A DNA stretch of 52,068 bases from Dehalococcoidales bacterium (lineage in GTDB: Bacteria > Chloroflexota > Dehalococcoidia > Dehalococcoidales > CSSed11-197). The position numbers and the translations under genes are program-made. The stretch spans positions 67,465-119,532 of the forward strand of contig JAQUNW010000002.1 of assembly GCA_028717385.1 (NCBI GenBank), read 5' to 3'. Below are positions 22,723 to 32,122 of this stretch, piece by piece. The notes beneath the pieces were generated by a model that searched no databases, was not told where the DNA came from, and saw only the letters and a list, made by a program, of their open reading frames with translations. The stretch's first letter is position 1. Each line of letters opens with the position of its first letter.

Positions 22723-25140
22723 ATGGCCGATGATTCTGGAGGACGCAGGGTTACAGGCAGCAGGAGGCGGCCGACATCTGCTTCTTCTGGCTCTCGTCCG
22801 CGCGCAACTGCCACGCGTAGATGGTCTGATTCATCTGGGGGCACATCCGGTTCTGGTACAAACTCGGGAGGCGGTTCATTTAGCGGCGTCAATCTTCTCG
22901 CCGCATTAATGGCTTTGATTGGTTTAGGTTCTGGTGGGGGAAAAGGGTGTCTTCCCCGCTCAAAAGGCTGTAGCCTGATAGGTATAGTTGCATTGGTTGT
23001 AATCGTAGTTATTGTTGTGATTAGCCTGCAGCAATGCGGTGGGTGTAATTTATTCACAAAAAATCCCGGTACCAACCCTACTACAACTCACGGTACCACC
23101 TCAACATCACCGACTTCTACAAATGCTTCAACAACCTATGTTCCATCTGGTGAAACCCATCGTTGGCTGGTAATGCTCTACCAGGGTGCGGATGATAATG
23201 TGCTGGAAAAAGACATTTATGTAGATTTAAACGAAGCGGAAATGGTTGGTTCGTCAGACGATGTTATGATTGTCGCCCAAATAGACCGATACAGTGGAGG
23301 CTTTAGCGGCGATGGAAACTGGACGGAAACCCGGCGATTTATTGTTCAGCGAGACCAAAATCTCGAGAAACTGGCTTCCCGGCAGGTGGGGAATCTTGGA
23401 GAACTCAATATGGCAACCGGTCAGACCTTGACGGATTTTGCTGTATGGGCAATTAATACCTATCCTTCTGACAGATATGCCTTGATAATGAGTGATCACG
23501 GAATGGGCTGGCCTGGCGGTTGGACGGATGCAACTGCTACAGGGAGCCGTAATTCCAGTATCCCGATTGCATCTGCAATTGGTGAGATGATATATCTCCA
23601 CGAACTTGAAGATGCTCTGTTTCAGATCCGATCTCAAACGGGAATCGATAAACTGGATATCATTGGTCTGGATGCCTGCCTGATGGCGCAGCTGGAAGTG
23701 TTTTCTGCTCTCGCTCCGCATGCCCATTATGCCATAGCTTCCGAAGAGGTTGAACCGGCACTGGGTTGGGCATACGCAGGTTTTTTGGGAAAACTTACCG
23801 AAAATCCTGATATGGATGGAGCCGGTCTCGGACGCTCTATTGTTGACAGTTATATAGATGATGATCACCTCATATCAAGCTCTTATCAACGAACCCAGCT
23901 CAGTCGTGATATAACTCTCACCGCAGTAGATCTTGCTGTTATGGCCAATTTGAATAACCACCTGAATGAGCTTTTGTACACATTTCAAAACGCTTCCCAA
24001 AAGGAAATAGCCGCAGGGCGCACCTATGCTCGAAGTTATACCAGCGTATTCGGATCCTCTGAACCACCGTCATACATTGACCTGGCAAACTTTTTGCAAA
24101 TCGTTAAGCAGAATAATAATCGGGTTGATGTGAATGACAGAATCAATGGAGTACTGTCTGCAATAAACCAGGCGGTTGTAGCTGAAAAGCATGGAGTACA
24201 GATGGAAGGCTCAAGTGGCATTTCCATCTATTTCCCCAACTCGGCTCTCTATAAAAGTCACATTTCCGGAGCCGAGTCCTACACCGCAGTAGCAAAACGC
24301 TTCGCCGCTGAATCATTATGGGATGATTTCCTCGCTTTTCATTACACCGGCAGAAATTTTGAACTGGGTGATGCAGAGGTAGTAGTTCCTGATAGCAGCT
24401 CGATAGCCTCGCCCGCCAGCGGTGATTTTTCCATAAACTCTCTGGCTTCGAGTAGCAGCACGGCTAGCCGGAACAGGCCGATCACGCTTACGGCTGATAT
24501 CAGTGGCCAAAACATCGGGTATATTTATCTGTTTGCCGGTTATCTGGATGAACAGGCCAACTCTCTGTTTATCGCCGACCGGGATTATATCGAAAGCCCG
24601 GATCTTCGTCTGGTTGACGGGGTGTATTACCCGGATTGGGGGGAAGGAGACTTTACTCTCGAGTTTATCTGGGAGCCGATAGTGTTTGCTATAAACGATG
24701 GAGTTTCTTCTGTTACAGCATTATTTAACCCGGAGAGTTACGGCTTGACTGCCGAAGAAGCGGTTTATTCTGTTGATGGAATATATCATTTTACAGGTGA
24801 AAACACTGAGTGTTATGCCAGGATGTATTTTACCAACGGAATAATGCAGAAAGTGGTAGGCTTTACCGGCTCGAGCGGCTCAGGAGCTCCTCGAGAGATT
24901 ACTCCAGCTCAGGGAGACCGTTTCACCGTCTTGGAAAACTGGCTTGATCTAGATGCTTATGGCAATGCTATCAACACAGCAACCAAAAAGGGAGGGGCTC
25001 TCACCTTCGCAAGCGATACTTTTACCTGGGAGGTGCTGGATGCGGCAACCGGCACATACAAGGTCGGATTCATAATTGAGGATCTGGATGGACACCGTCA
25101 GGAATCTTTATTGAACATAGAGGTGGTAGATGAAGGTTAA
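22723..25140 (+). CDS. Membrane-anchored clostripain-family (C11) cysteine protease
   Basis: 805 aa. An Arg/Ser/Gly-rich low-complexity N-tail (1-80) is followed by one membrane helix (about 83-101). A Thr/Ser/Pro-rich stalk (about 113-143) leads to the C11 catalytic domain from about 146. Catalytic His259 is in SDHGMGW and Cys319 in GLDACLMAQLE. C11 enzymes cleave after Arg or Lys. The basic N-tail implies an inside N-terminus and an exported protease. A beta-rich C-terminal region (about 560-800) with an Ig/PKD-like feel follows. ATG 22723 has GGGAGG upstream. The last 11 nt overlap the serpin gene. The stalk is a plausible O-mannosylation target. Confidence 0.87.
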   Translation: MADDSGGRRVTGSRRRPTSASSGSRPRATATRRWSDSSGGTSGSGTNSGGGSFSGVNLLAALMALIGLGSGGGKGCLPRSKGCSLIGIVALVVIVVIVVISLQQCGGCNLFTKNPGTNPTTTHGTTSTSPTSTNASTTYVPSGETHRWLVMLYQGADDNVLEKDIYVDLNEAEMVGSSDDVMIVAQIDRYSGGFSGDGNWTETRRFIVQRDQNLEKLASRQVGNLGELNMATGQTLTDFAVWAINTYPSDRYALIMSDHGMGWPGGWTDATATGSRNSSIPIASAIGEMIYLHELEDALFQIRSQTGIDKLDIIGLDACLMAQLEVFSALAPHAHYAIASEEVEPALGWAYAGFLGKLTENPDMDGAGLGRSIVDSYIDDDHLISSSYQRTQLSRDITLTAVDLAVMANLNNHLNELLYTFQNASQKEIAAGRTYARSYTSVFGSSEPPSYIDLANFLQIVKQNNNRVDVNDRINGVLSAINQAVVAEKHGVQMEGSSGISIYFPNSALYKSHISGAESYTAVAKRFAAESLWDDFLAFHYTGRNFELGDAEVVVPDSSSIASPASGDFSINSLASSSSTASRNRPITLTADISGQNIGYIYLFAGYLDEQANSLFIADRDYIESPDLRLVDGVYYPDWGEGDFTLEFIWEPIVFAINDGVSSVTALFNPESYGLTAEEAVYSVDGIYHFTGENTECYARMYFTNGIMQKVVGFTGSSGSGAPREITPAQGDRFTVLENWLDLDAYGNAINTATKKGGALTFASDTFTWEVLDAATGTYKVGFIIEDLDGHRQESLLNIEVVDEG

Positions 25141-26338
25141 GGTTCTCCGATCTGATCATAAAGAACGATGTCCAGATACGCCCGTAGCAGAGGAAGATGT
25201 TTCGGCACTGGTTTCTGGTAATAGCGCTTTTGCTCTGAATCTATATCGCCAGATAAGAAAACAGGACGTCAATTTGATATTTTCCCCCTACTCTATATCT
25301 ACGGCGCTGGCTATGACTTGGGCTGGAGCTCGGGGAGAAACCGAAACTGAAATGTCTGCAGTCATGAATTTCGATCTTGAACAACCGCAGCTGCATCCTG
25401 CATTCAGATCCCTTGATGCCGAGCTGAATAAAAAGATTGGAAGCGAAGGCAGTGAGGATACAGCCGGCTTTAAGTTACGAATAGTAAATTCTGTATGGGG
25501 GCAAAAAGGTTACAGGTTTCTTCCGGAATACCTCGATATACTGGCTAAAAACTACCGATCCGGACTTAACCTGGTGGACTTCAGGGGCAAGAGTGAAGAA
25601 TCCCGCCGTACTATTAATGACTGGGTGCTTGAACAGACTCAAGGGATAATCGATGAGCTGGTCGGCCGGGGAGCAATAGATTCATCGACTCGGTTGGTGC
25701 TTACTAATGCGATATATTTCAAAGGCGCATGGAAGTATCCATTTGAAGCTTTCAGAACCGCTGAAGGCCTTTTCCGGCTGCAAAATGGGGAGGAAATATT
25801 CGTGCCCATGATGAACCGGACCATGCTTGTTCCATACGCCCAAATTGGCAACTGTCAGGCAGTTGAACTGCCTTACAAAACAGAGGATATCTCAATGGTT
25901 ATACTTCTGCCTGATTTTGGCGAGTGTGAAGACTTTGTTAATGCGCTTGATCGCGAAAAGCTTTTCACCATTATCGAGGCGTTAAAGTTGGCTGATGTGA
26001 ACCTCACTATGCCAAGGTTTAAGTTTAAATATAATCTGGCATTAAAACAGGCTCTTGTTGAAATGGGCATGAAAAGTGCCTTCACCAGTAATGCTGACTT
26101 CTCTGGAATCAGCCGGGAAGGAAGTTTATACCTGCAGGATGTGCTTCACAAGGCATTTGTAGCTGTTGATGAAGAAGGCACCGAAGCTGCAGCGGCAACG
26201 GCAGCCATTGTAGGAATCAAGCTGTTTACTCCTCTGGCAGTTCAGCTTAAACTTGACCGGTCATTTGTTTTCTTTATACGTAACAGGAGCACCGGTACAG
26301 TACTGTTTATGGGGCAGGTGCAAAATCCTTTGGCTTGA
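25130..26338 (+). CDS. Serpin (inhibitory-type protease inhibitor)
   Basis: 402 aa. Full serpin fold: NLIFSPYSISTALAMTWAGA, LTNAIYFKGAWKYPF, MVILLPD, and the C-terminal FVFFIRNRSTGTVLFMGQV. The hinge EEGTEAAAATAA (348-359) has the small-residue pattern of inhibitory serpins, so loop insertion should be possible. Counting from the hinge, P1 falls at Lys364 (IKLF), with an uncertainty of about three residues because the loop is longer than in antitrypsin. No signal peptide is visible, so it is predicted cytoplasmic. The start overlaps the C11 protease gene by 11 nt, with AGAGGTGG (25119-25126) as Shine-Dalgarno. Confidence 0.92.
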   Translation: MKVKVLRSDHKERCPDTPVAEEDVSALVSGNSAFALNLYRQIRKQDVNLIFSPYSISTALAMTWAGARGETETEMSAVMNFDLEQPQLHPAFRSLDAELNKKIGSEGSEDTAGFKLRIVNSVWGQKGYRFLPEYLDILAKNYRSGLNLVDFRGKSEESRRTINDWVLEQTQGIIDELVGRGAIDSSTRLVLTNAIYFKGAWKYPFEAFRTAEGLFRLQNGEEIFVPMMNRTMLVPYAQIGNCQAVELPYKTEDISMVILLPDFGECEDFVNALDREKLFTIIEALKLADVNLTMPRFKFKYNLALKQALVEMGMKSAFTSNADFSGISREGSLYLQDVLHKAFVAVDEEGTEAAAATAAIVGIKLFTPLAVQLKLDRSFVFFIRNRSTGTVLFMGQVQNPLA

Positions 26339-26418: not shown

Positions 26419-26589
26419 CTATGAACGGTTTACAAATAAAGCTGCTATTACCACCCCCAGTATCCCTCCGATTATAGCCCCGGTCCAGGGGCTCGATGTC
26501 AATCCTCAGGCGCTATTAGAACATTTGCCGATATAGCCGATGATAGCTCCAAGGGCTGCCCCTGAAAGTAATCCGATCAAGTAGTGCAT
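26419..26589 (-). CDS. Candidate selenoprotein: two-TM DUF6132-like small membrane protein with in-frame UGA
   Basis: 57 codons including stop; codon 28 is TGA (26506-26508), read here as selenocysteine. Helix 1 covers about residues 3-21, and helix 2 about 35-53. The loop between reads KCSNSAUGLTSSPW. Relatives I recall (DUF6132) have C-x4-C-P-x-T-S-x-P in this loop; the UGA falls exactly on the second Cys. Coding character continues unbroken after the UGA: hydrophobic helix, then TAG. A GAGAGG Shine-Dalgarno precedes ATG 26589, and an extended -10 promoter lies upstream. A hairpin follows the UGA at SECIS distance. The alternative is a nonsense mutation. Not found by standard gene calling because of the UGA. 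Confidence 0.7.
26476..26493 (-). promoter_or_regulatory. Candidate bacterial SECIS hairpin
   Basis: On the minus strand AGCCCC (26493-26488), loop TGGACC, GGGGCT (26481-26476): a 6-bp perfect stem with 6-nt loop. Its loop starts 18 nt after the UGA (26508-26506). Bacterial SECIS elements have the apical loop about 16-37 nt after the UGA and a G in the first two loop positions; here the second is G. This fits the E. coli fdhF geometry. Confidence 0.65.
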
Positions 26590-26617
26590 TTCCGCCTCTC
26601 AATATTCGTATAAGAAC

Positions 26618-26646
26618 ATTATAGCACTGCGGAAAAAAACCTCCAA
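26618..26646 (-). promoter_or_regulatory. Promoter of the candidate selenoprotein gene
   Basis: On the minus strand TTGGAG (26646-26641), 17-nt spacer ending TGC, then perfect TATAAT (26623-26618). Start near 26611 leaves a leader of about 22 nt with the GAGAGG Shine-Dalgarno. Confidence 0.65.
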
Positions 26647-26661
26647 ACTGGGGCAGCAATA

Positions 26662-27213
26662 CTAAGGCTTGGCAGTAATAATGTAATGATACAGTCCGTT
26701 TTCGTCTACGTTTTCAATAGTAAATCCGGCAGAGCGGATGATCTCGGACGCTTGCCTGGCATCAAAACGCTTCTCAAAAGAAGGACCGTATAACATCCGT
26801 TCTTTTTTCCAATCCAGATTTACTAGCCTGCCGCCATCTTTAAGCATTTTTTGCGCGTTGGCAAGTGCTTTTAAAGGCTCAGTAAAGTCATGGAGAACGA
26901 CTCCATAAAAGACGATATCGGCACATTTTTGACAGACGACAAGTTCTTCCGCTCTGCCAACTGCCAATTCCAGGTTATTCAAGCCTTCAGTGGTTGCTCT
27001 TCGGCTTAAAGACAGGATTGCCTCGGGATTACTGTCAAAACCCCAGACCCAACCAGTCGGCCCGGTTAATCTCGCAGCCGGTAATGCAAAATAACCTCTT
27101 CCGCAGCCGGCATCAATGAATTTAGTGCCAGGCTTAACACCAATTTCCGGCAGGATAATATCTGGATTTTGCCATTTTTTTCTTTCTGCATCATCTGGTT
27201 TATGCTTGCACAT
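26662..27213 (-). CDS. Class I SAM-dependent methyltransferase
   Basis: 183 aa. SAM-binding motif I FIDAGCGRGYFALPAA, acidic end of strand 2 in GFDSNPEA, motif around IVFYGVVLHDF, and post-motif LKDGGRLVNLDWKKE, in the UbiE/Methyltransf_25 style. The substrate is unknown. Four cysteines (two in VVCQKCAD) might bind metal. The gene starts 8 nt after the lipoprotein gene on the same strand without a clear Shine-Dalgarno, so translation is probably coupled. Confidence 0.82.
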   Translation of the reverse strand: MCKHKPDDAERKKWQNPDIILPEIGVKPGTKFIDAGCGRGYFALPAARLTGPTGWVWGFDSNPEAILSLSRRATTEGLNNLELAVGRAEELVVCQKCADIVFYGVVLHDFTEPLKALANAQKMLKDGGRLVNLDWKKERMLYGPSFEKRFDARQASEIIRSAGFTIENVDENGLYHYIITAKP

Positions 27214-30124: not shown

Positions 30125-30133
30125 TGCTAGAAT
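30125..30133 (+). promoter_or_regulatory. Extended -10 promoter, near-leaderless
   Basis: TGC then TAGAAT (30128-30133), 10 nt before ATG 30144. No Shine-Dalgarno is present. Confidence 0.5.
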
Positions 30134-30143
30134 ACATCCTGGC

Positions 30144-30770
30144 ATGACAGACAATAATTTCGTACCTGAAGAAACCTGCCGTAAACCCGGTGCTCGTAAT
30201 TTTAACTCTCTGAAGCTTTGGTTCTTAAGGCGCTGGATTCCAATATTTGGCCTGCTTCTCATCATCGCCCTTGTAATAGGGCTTTTCCTTCTCTACCGGA
30301 ATAACCCGGAGATCATAGATGGGCTTGAAAGATTCGGTTACCTGGGAGCTTTTCTGATAAGCATAGTACTCAATGCCACGCTGGTGTTACCTGCTGGTAA
30401 TTTTCTTGTACTTGCTGCACTAGGGGCAACACTGCCATCTGCTACTCTGGTCGGCCTGGCGGGGGGCCTGGGTGCCGCTATTGGTGAGAGTACGGGGTAC
30501 TTGGCCGGGTATTCCGGAAGAGCGATAATCGATAATCGGAATATGTACAATCGTACGGAAGGTTGGATGAAGCGCTGGGGTTTTTGGGCGCTGTTCGGTC
30601 TCAGCGCTGCTCCGCTCTTTTTTGACCTGGCTGGTATCGCAGCTGGTGCCTGCCGTTACAGGTTCTGGAAGTTTTTCCTGGCCTGCTGGTTGGGAAGAAG
30701 TATCCTCTATGTTGCCATCGCCTGGGCCGGCCTGAAGGGCTGGGAATGGTTGCTAAACATTGTTGGCTGA
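30144..30770 (+). CDS. VTT-domain (DedA/TVP38-like) membrane protein
   Basis: 208 aa. Soluble N-tail, a helix at about 32-51, the conserved FLISIVLNATLVLPAGNFL region, the Gly-rich GLAGGLGAAIGESTGYLAG motif of VTT proteins, a polar loop, and two C-terminal helices with GLSAAPLFFDLAGIAAG. Paralogue of the protein at 10663-11316. Likely acts on lipid transbilayer movement by family; substrate unknown. The start fits a leaderless transcript. Confidence 0.77.
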   Translation: MTDNNFVPEETCRKPGARNFNSLKLWFLRRWIPIFGLLLIIALVIGLFLLYRNNPEIIDGLERFGYLGAFLISIVLNATLVLPAGNFLVLAALGATLPSATLVGLAGGLGAAIGESTGYLAGYSGRAIIDNRNMYNRTEGWMKRWGFWALFGLSAAPLFFDLAGIAAGACRYRFWKFFLACWLGRSILYVAIAWAGLKGWEWLLNIVG

Positions 30771-30850
30771 AAAACTCACCCAACACCGAATAGCTGGTTA
30801 AACATCTTTTCAGTGCGATCGGGTGTAACCGGTTAGAGCAAGCACCGTAT

Positions 30851-32122
30851 TTATACTTTCAATCTTGAGTTTGGTTTTACCTTGATTAACAGAAGCGCTC
30901 CTGCGACGAAATATACTATACAAACGAGAAGCATTACAGTATAGCCAAGGTTCAAACCGACCCCGTTGAAAAAATCGATAACCGGGCCGATAAGCCTGGC
31001 CAGTGCACCTCCGCCTGCAGTTGCCATATTGGCAATACCTAAAAACTTGGCTTCCTCCCCCTTATTTACCAGGTCGGTAGCCAGTGCCCAGTTGGAACTG
31101 TTAAAGGCGCCCAGGGCAAGACCTATCACTGAGGCTCCTACCGTAAGCATTGCATTGGATGAGCTTATAAGTATGACCACTATTCCAAATGCGCCGGATA
31201 AAGCAGCAGCTATACAGATTTTTTTCCTGCCAATGGAATCCGAGAAATAGCCTGCAGGCAGCACTGCAATCAGCATAAATACGATTGCAACGGCTAAAAA
31301 ACGGGTTGTAGCAGAAGCCGGATCGCTTACTCCAACAACATCCCGAAAATAATACAGGGCAAATTGCTGTATGGTGGTAAGCCCCATAAAAACTGCCAGT
31401 CGGGATGCCAGAAACCATAGAAAAGCCTTGTTGTCCTTAACATTGATGCTGAAACTCTTTACCCAGGCTGGAATCATGTGCTGTCTGAGCGGCCTTTGCG
31501 GCCGGGGTTCTTTAATTGCCAAAACCGTATAAAGAAGGAGGAGGAAGATTATCCCGCCCAGGAGCGCTAGTGAGAACCACAACCACTTGTCCTCGCTTGT
31601 CAGAGAATAACTGTCCATAAGTCTGGATACAGGGAAAAGCAGGACAGCCCCTCCCAGTATTTCCATAAAACTCTTTATTCCGGAAGCTTTACCCCTTTGG
31701 CTTGCGGGCACCATTTCCGGGATAAAAGCCTGGTATGGTCCCTGTGCGGCGTTGGAAAATAATTGAAGGGCACAGTAGCCGATAAAAAGCATGGTAAAAG
31801 AAGTAGCCACACCTATCACCGGCATTGTTGCAAGTGCTCCGATCATGCCGGCCAGTATAAAGGGTTTCCGACGCCCCCAGTTGAGAGTAGAGCGGTCTGA
31901 GATAGTCCCGGCAATAGGCTGAGCAAGCATTGCGATAATCAGGCCGCTGAATGTCATCAGTCCCAGGTAGGTATTTTTTTGCGCTTCGGAGGCAAAATCC
32001 AGGACTACCAGTGGGAGAATAAGGCTGTGCATACATTGCCAGAGTCCGGAAATCCCGAATACAAGCAGGGTTATTTTAAGATAGTGCCATATATTGGTTT
32101 TATTAAGAGCGGTACTTTTCAT
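30851..32122 (-). CDS. MFS transporter (SLC45/GPH-like)
   Basis: 423 aa, about 12 membrane helices. The loop 2-3 motif DRSTLNWGRRKPFILAG resembles the GRRRP motif of SLC45/sucrose-type and GPH-like carriers, and the C-half repeats it as SDSIGRKKI. The substrate is unknown. ATG 32122 is preferred: it lies 4 nt after the argC stop; an upstream in-frame TTG (32176) would lie inside argC. No good Shine-Dalgarno, so translation may depend on argC coupling. Confidence 0.85.
   Translation of the reverse strand: MKSTALNKTNIWHYLKITLLVFGISGLWQCMHSLILPLVVLDFASEAQKNTYLGLMTFSGLIIAMLAQPIAGTISDRSTLNWGRRKPFILAGMIGALATMPVIGVATSFTMLFIGYCALQLFSNAAQGPYQAFIPEMVPASQRGKASGIKSFMEILGGAVLLFPVSRLMDSYSLTSEDKWLWFSLALLGGIIFLLLLYTVLAIKEPRPQRPLRQHMIPAWVKSFSINVKDNKAFLWFLASRLAVFMGLTTIQQFALYYFRDVVGVSDPASATTRFLAVAIVFMLIAVLPAGYFSDSIGRKKICIAAALSGAFGIVVILISSSNAMLTVGASVIGLALGAFNSSNWALATDLVNKGEEAKFLGIANMATAGGGALARLIGPVIDFFNGVGLNLGYTVMLLVCIVYFVAGALLLIKVKPNSRLKV

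Follow-up and report, generated by a model that had tools for sequence, protein, structure and literature searches.

An in-frame UGA in a very small DUF6132 gene of a Dehalococcoidales bacterium very likely encodes selenocysteine

Is the TGA at codon 28 of a very small gene in a Dehalococcoidales bacterium a stop codon, or is it read as selenocysteine (Sec), and what might the product do? The gene lies in a stretch of 52,068 nucleotides analysed as a whole (the window), itself a segment of contig C2 in a genome of 1.37 Mb that is 96% complete. A preliminary description, made from sequence alone, had proposed a DUF6132-like selenoprotein with two membrane helices, a C-x4-C-P loop pattern with the UGA exactly on the second Cys, its own extended -10 promoter and Shine-Dalgarno sequence, and a CxxxxU redox loop at the membrane surface, and had regarded it as the mark of a Sec-using lineage. 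As checks it named homologues aligned through the UGA and the presence of selA, selB, selC and selD in the same genome, while relatives with other stops and no Cys in the column would refute it. On comparative genomic evidence, without peptide or 75Se data, we conclude that the gene very likely encodes a selenoprotein with UGA codon 28 read as Sec. The joint claim of selenoprotein identity and a broad role in membrane thiol redox is likely, with no protein, 75Se or activity data behind it.

The features of the gene and of the Sec decoding machinery are listed in Table 1. With UGA given as U, the 56-residue minus-strand frame, which includes one in-frame TGA, was translated as MHYLIGLLSGAALGAIIGYIGKCSNSAUGLTSSPWTGAIIGGILGVVIAALFVNRS, with U28. 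TGA as a codon terminates 10 of the 42 long ORFs in the window and is therefore not reassigned. The neighbours of the gene are a methyltransferase-like gene on the same strand (26662-27213) and, in convergent orientation, a gene resembling serpins (25130-26338), both named by eye. No promoter of the gene was listed by the consensus scanner and no -35 hexamer was present; TGnTATAAT was readable upstream of the gene in 5/5 genus members compared.

Table 1. Features of the DUF6132 gene (window positions) and of the Sec machinery (positions on contig C2)
Feature	Position	Strand	Basis or remark
DUF6132 gene, very likely a selenoprotein gene, 56 residues + TAG	26419..26589	-	frame, Pfam match, recurring TGA in Dehalococcoidia and Desulfuromonadia
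ATG start	26587-26589	-	frame
In-frame TGA, very likely Sec28	26506..26508	-	column of second Cys in Cys homologues
TAG stop	26419-26421	-	frame
Cys23 codon, presumed resolving/partner thiol (C-x4-U)	26521..26523	-	common, not invariant
Trp35 codon TGG	26485..26487	-	63/63 Sec forms; UGG is 5' side of SECIS apical loop
SECIS hairpin AGCCCCUGGACCGGGGCU, 6 bp stem	26476..26493	-	comparative; apical loop begins 18 nt past UGA
Shine-Dalgarno GAGAGG	26595..26600	-	visible in sequence
Extended -10 TGCTATAAT	26618..26626	-	visible in sequence
tRNA-Sec (selC)	C2:30016-30105
selD	G000 C2 about 30125-31198 (L021:8126-9199)		split by in-frame TGA
selA	C2:31243-32583		561 bits
selB	C2:32610-34472		369 bits

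Family membership was determined with the Pfam profile DUF6132 (PF19628), whose gathering cut-off is 23.2 bits. The product matched at 50.3 bits (E = 1.9e-13) with C at the UGA site and at 45.0 bits (E = 8.1e-12) with X, and the profile match spans the UGA; 30/30 members of alignment A3 also matched DUF6132. The Cys form of PF19628 and the Sec form share their length, two helices, Gly spacing and a C-x4-[C/U] loop ending x-P, and U falls in the column held by the second Cys in the C-x4-C-P-x-T-x-N-P of Cys forms. The Sec form differs in having Sec for this second loop Cys, Gly or Ala for the Pro that follows it, and an invariant P-W, the codons of which form the SECIS. Sec forms are mostly U-G or U-A while Cys forms are C-P; after U, Sec forms usually show Gly, Ala or Met-preceding Ala, and the gene in the window has no CP. 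The CP after the second loop Cys is a trait of the Cys forms compared and no Pfam criterion, and its absence marks a distinct Sec subgroup of DUF6132. Thus the proposed frame through the TGA to the TAG with its two membrane helices, the family and the placing of the UGA on the second Cys all held, the C-x4-C-P pattern held in part, for Cys forms only, and the extended -10 and GAGAGG held by reading.

DUF6132 was found in 10 of 61 genomes (the genome itself and its relatives), with a TGA inside each gene, and a class-wide sample of 393 genomes gave three further DUF6132 genomes, all with the TGA. In total, every full DUF6132 gene of the 13 genomes of Dehalococcoidia contained the in-frame TGA, never TAA or TAG. 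Within the genus, each member that carries the gene has the same TGA, a recurrence that, like the Pfam match, lies well outside chance. The Chloroflexota samples searched yielded no full Cys homologue, and the phylum-wide matches in G439, G475, G592, G618 and G651 were partial or marginal and were left uncounted. A DNA pattern of UGA plus hairpin was met at 41 places in named genomes, 37 of them clear family members, and the isolate Pelovirga terrestris M08fum (L068) was among the genomes so found. The matches L044 and L062 were rejected as chance; L045 is a doubtful, weak candidate in a genome without selA, and L066 is doubtful with a broken N-terminus.

Since the DNA pattern presupposes the hairpin, the class of Pelovirga was searched by protein profile alone. 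This search of Desulfuromonadia recovered the gene in 44 of 277 genomes, with exactly one TGA in 44/44 and never TAA or TAG; for Dehalococcoidia and Desulfuromonadia alike, that it is the same TGA column was verified in all fetched copies only. In Fibrobacterota, the phylum of the Chitinivibrionales locus, the profile gave 15 convincing Cys genes and 7 Sec genes, and both forms are also present in Planctomycetota. Homologues aligned through the UGA were therefore found, as the preliminary description had proposed, and among the relatives compared none carried another stop at the UGA position, nor another stop together with loss of the Cys. Neither the DNA-pattern scan nor the search with alignment A1 found anything in viral contigs, and tblastn against plasmids returned nothing.

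Selection was estimated on both sides of the UGA with the Nei-Gojobori method. The dN/dS was about 0.08-0.14 upstream of the UGA and 0.12-0.16 downstream, also without the SECIS codons, so that the protein is under selection on both sides; the ratios are rough because dS is near saturation. In a tree of 50 columns, Cys and Sec forms were split by one branch (100/99), while the inner order is unreliable because of so few columns. The Sec form is probably one subgroup that occurs across several phyla, and not the result of many recent point changes. The alternative that the TGA is an ordinary stop, the downstream frame being a pseudogene or a chance similarity, is supported by the fact that under table 11 the frame does end at this TGA. 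It is all but excluded by the retention of TGA across several phyla, never as TAA or TAG, by the low dN/dS past the TGA and by the profile match across it.

A hairpin CCCUGGNYNGGG at a fixed distance past the UGA was present in 61 of 63 distinct Sec genes, with at least 4 core pairs beside the loop, and in 0/15 Cys genes, even those also encoding Pro-Trp. Among 34 sequences found by profile only, compensatory double changes occurred in 18 cells, where shuffles gave 7.2 +/- 2.9, while 0/500 shuffles reached the covariation score and every slid control was lower; the shuffle control ignores relatedness, while the slid control does not. According to the bSECIS model (PMC13188914), the apical loop has 3-9 nt with G in the first two positions, the stem has 4-16 bp, the distance from the UGA is 16-37 nt and the MFE is at or below -7.5 kcal/mol. 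The hairpin in the window meets these criteria (6 bp, loop UGGACC with G second, 18 nt, -12.0 kcal/mol), and a few homologous hairpins miss the energy threshold. The SECIS evidence rests on comparison, because the single-sequence fold of the window copy alone was unremarkable against shuffles (z -0.87). A second helix past the SECIS was tested and was not supported, and Rfam gave no match at the DUF6132 locus. The RNA signal constrains the protein, since the P-W-x-G stretch of Sec forms encodes the SECIS. Because the UGA and the RNA signal recur together in dozens of bacteria of several phyla, we take this to be a real selenoprotein family.

The decoding genes named in the preliminary description were all found: selC, selD, selA and selB form one cluster on the same contig as the DUF6132 gene. 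The frame of SelD extends upstream through a TGA (...EYSGUAAKISPGDLEKAL..., the usual Sec position, SGUAAKI), for which reason SelD itself is likely a selenoprotein too, as inferred from sequence alone; table 11 annotation would therefore miss its N-terminus. A second match to the tRNA-Sec model (G000 C44:1037-1122, L004) scored 50.4 bits against a cut-off of 47 and could be either another selC or a tRNA of the Ser/Leu type. In the 61-genome set, selA or selB, whole or partial, was present in 9/10 DUF6132 genomes, the exception being 77% complete, and selB was present in 6/6 gene-bearing genomes versus 15/27 overall among 27 good-quality relatives. Full-length selA was present in 16 of the 17 genomes reached via the DNA pattern, the exception being the one that holds L045. 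In Fibrobacterota, selA was present in 6/7 genomes with the Sec form versus 3/14 with Cys forms only (Fisher one-sided p 0.009). Sec use itself thus held, but it is no new mark of the lineage, since the Sec machinery of Dehalogenimonas alkenigignens in Dehalococcoidia is already published (PMC4918011).

A further alternative is that the UGA is recoded as another residue by near-cognate read-through or a suppressor, or is read through rarely for regulation with the short peptide as main product. UGA in any context can leak, and protein data are absent. This explanation is very unlikely in view of the co-occurrence with selA, the hairpin that covaries, goes with the UGA and is missing from Cys forms, the Cys in the same column and the purifying selection downstream of the UGA.

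The Sec form of DUF6132 is apparently a new selenoprotein family as far as the sources covered can tell, papers beyond the open-access literature and GenBank annotations not being among them. PF19628 is absent from the 119-family selenoprotein table of a May 2026 review (PMC13188914), no meaningful NCBIfam 20.0 match, selenoprotein models included, was obtained among 30 family members, and the open-access literature searched contained one mention of DUF6132 only, an unrelated text match. The family would then be apparently uncatalogued, very small and present in at least four phyla, namely Chloroflexota, Desulfobacterota (Desulfuromonadia), Fibrobacterota and Planctomycetota, and standard annotation would cut each of its Sec genes short at the UGA.

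For the function, the structure model placed helices at residues 2-23 and 34-55 and U28 in the loop, with low confidence (pLDDT 64.6). Charge counts for 30 members were ends-inside in 13, the reverse in 6 and a tie in 11; the topology is uncertain, and the predicted ends-inside orientation is only a possibility towards which the counts lean. In three Planctomycetota genomes (L137, L138, L140), the Cys form is part of an in-frame fusion with a thioredoxin domain at the C-terminus (PF00085, E 7e-18 to 7e-27). All seven Fibrobacterota Sec genomes have a thioredoxin gene upstream of the Sec gene, and in two of them a CoA-disulfide reductase gene lies downstream. Neighbours of Cys forms include genes for ArsR, a thioredoxin-like exported protein, CcdA, rhodanese or ferredoxin; two Chloroflexota loci have ArsR, ferredoxin and DUF6132 together, YeeE-type sulphur transporter genes (PF04143) adjoin L106 and L138, and rhodanese and DUF1858 lie upstream of L139. 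The thioredoxin link comes from other phyla, because the gene stands alone in the genus of the window. Fusions and neighbours are the first functional lead for DUF6132 and point, by inference, to membrane thiol or sulfane-sulfur redox, with electron direction, substrate and membrane side not shown. The redox loop at the membrane surface is still an inference, now supported in its thiol-redox sense.

The cell's own SelC, SelD, SelA and SelB very likely decode UGA 28 as Sec, steered by the coding-region SECIS directly downstream. The product would be a two-helix membrane hairpin rich in Gly-zipper spacing, whose connecting loop holds Cys23 and Sec28. In the mechanism that we propose, the C-x4-U (or C-x4-C) pair would alternate between reduced thiol/selenol and disulfide/selenylsulfide. 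Acting as a small membrane thiol relay, it may exchange electrons at the membrane with partners of the thioredoxin type and hand them on to a substrate, be it a disulfide, a persulfide or sulfane sulfur; with Sec, attack and resolution would be faster and over-oxidation better resisted. This specific relay is the most likely mechanism that we can infer, and it could as well prove wrong as right. The first Cys is not invariant: L034 and L064 lack it, and in L019, L063 and L079 an adjacent CU pair stands in its place. The case for a strict C-x4-U disulfide is thereby weakened. A bolder reading, no more than possible, is that the two-helix Sec relay draws electrons from cytosolic thioredoxin and supplies them, either across the membrane or at it, to substrates with a disulfide or sulfane sulfur; if true, 56 residues would do the work of CcdA/DsbD with six or more helices.

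The transmembrane domain of CcdA/DsbD, the membrane thiol relay partner of thioredoxins, is proposed as a working analogue, and a CcdA gene lies near the Cys forms L117 and L121. It differs in having six or more helices versus two, DUF6132 carries its U/C in the loop, and DUF6132 showed no match to PF02683 or PF13386 (CcdA/DsbD). The YeeE/YedE thiosulfate transporter selenoprotein (PF04143, GUxSG) likewise has Sec in a membrane protein with a link to sulfur, but is far larger and belongs to another family with another motif. The MerT-type putative mercuric transport selenoprotein (PF02411, C/SxxU) resembles DUF6132 as a small membrane protein with Sec near Cys, but DUF6132 has no Pfam match to PF02411, and spacing and neighbours differ.

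It remains possible that the selenoprotein handles metals, metalloids or organometals (e.g. Hg, As or Se species) rather than acting in a thiol/sulfur relay. ArsR-type regulators adjoin several Cys and Sec forms, a permease gene lies downstream of L132, and other Sec proteins, such as the MerT-type and the Sao system, are metal-linked (PMC13188914). Against this, neither MerT nor any other Pfam family for metal transport was matched, thioredoxin, CcdA, rhodanese, CoA-disulfide reductase and YeeE make up the fusions and most recurrent neighbours, and ArsR-type regulators include sulfane-sulfur-responsive repressors (PMC10451225, and in part general background). The thiol-redox reading is thus preferred.

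Several minor observations were made on individual loci. In the subgroup of L019/L075, L063 and L079, C-x4-U has become an adjacent Cys-Sec (GPCUG), as in CU-type selenoproteins. The Chloroflexota genome G783 has two Sec DUF6132 genes (L048 and L064), of which L064 lacks the upstream Cys. Seven Desulfuromonadia loci (L042, L043, L047, L053, L065, L072 and L081) show conserved synteny, with a Na+/Ca2+-exchanger-like gene and a regulator of the Lrp type (both named by eye) downstream of the gene. The Fibrobacterota genome G1078 has one DUF6132 paralogue of the Cys form and one of the Sec form (L123 and L135), and this natural pair in a single genome is a system for testing the benefit of selenium to a membrane redox protein.
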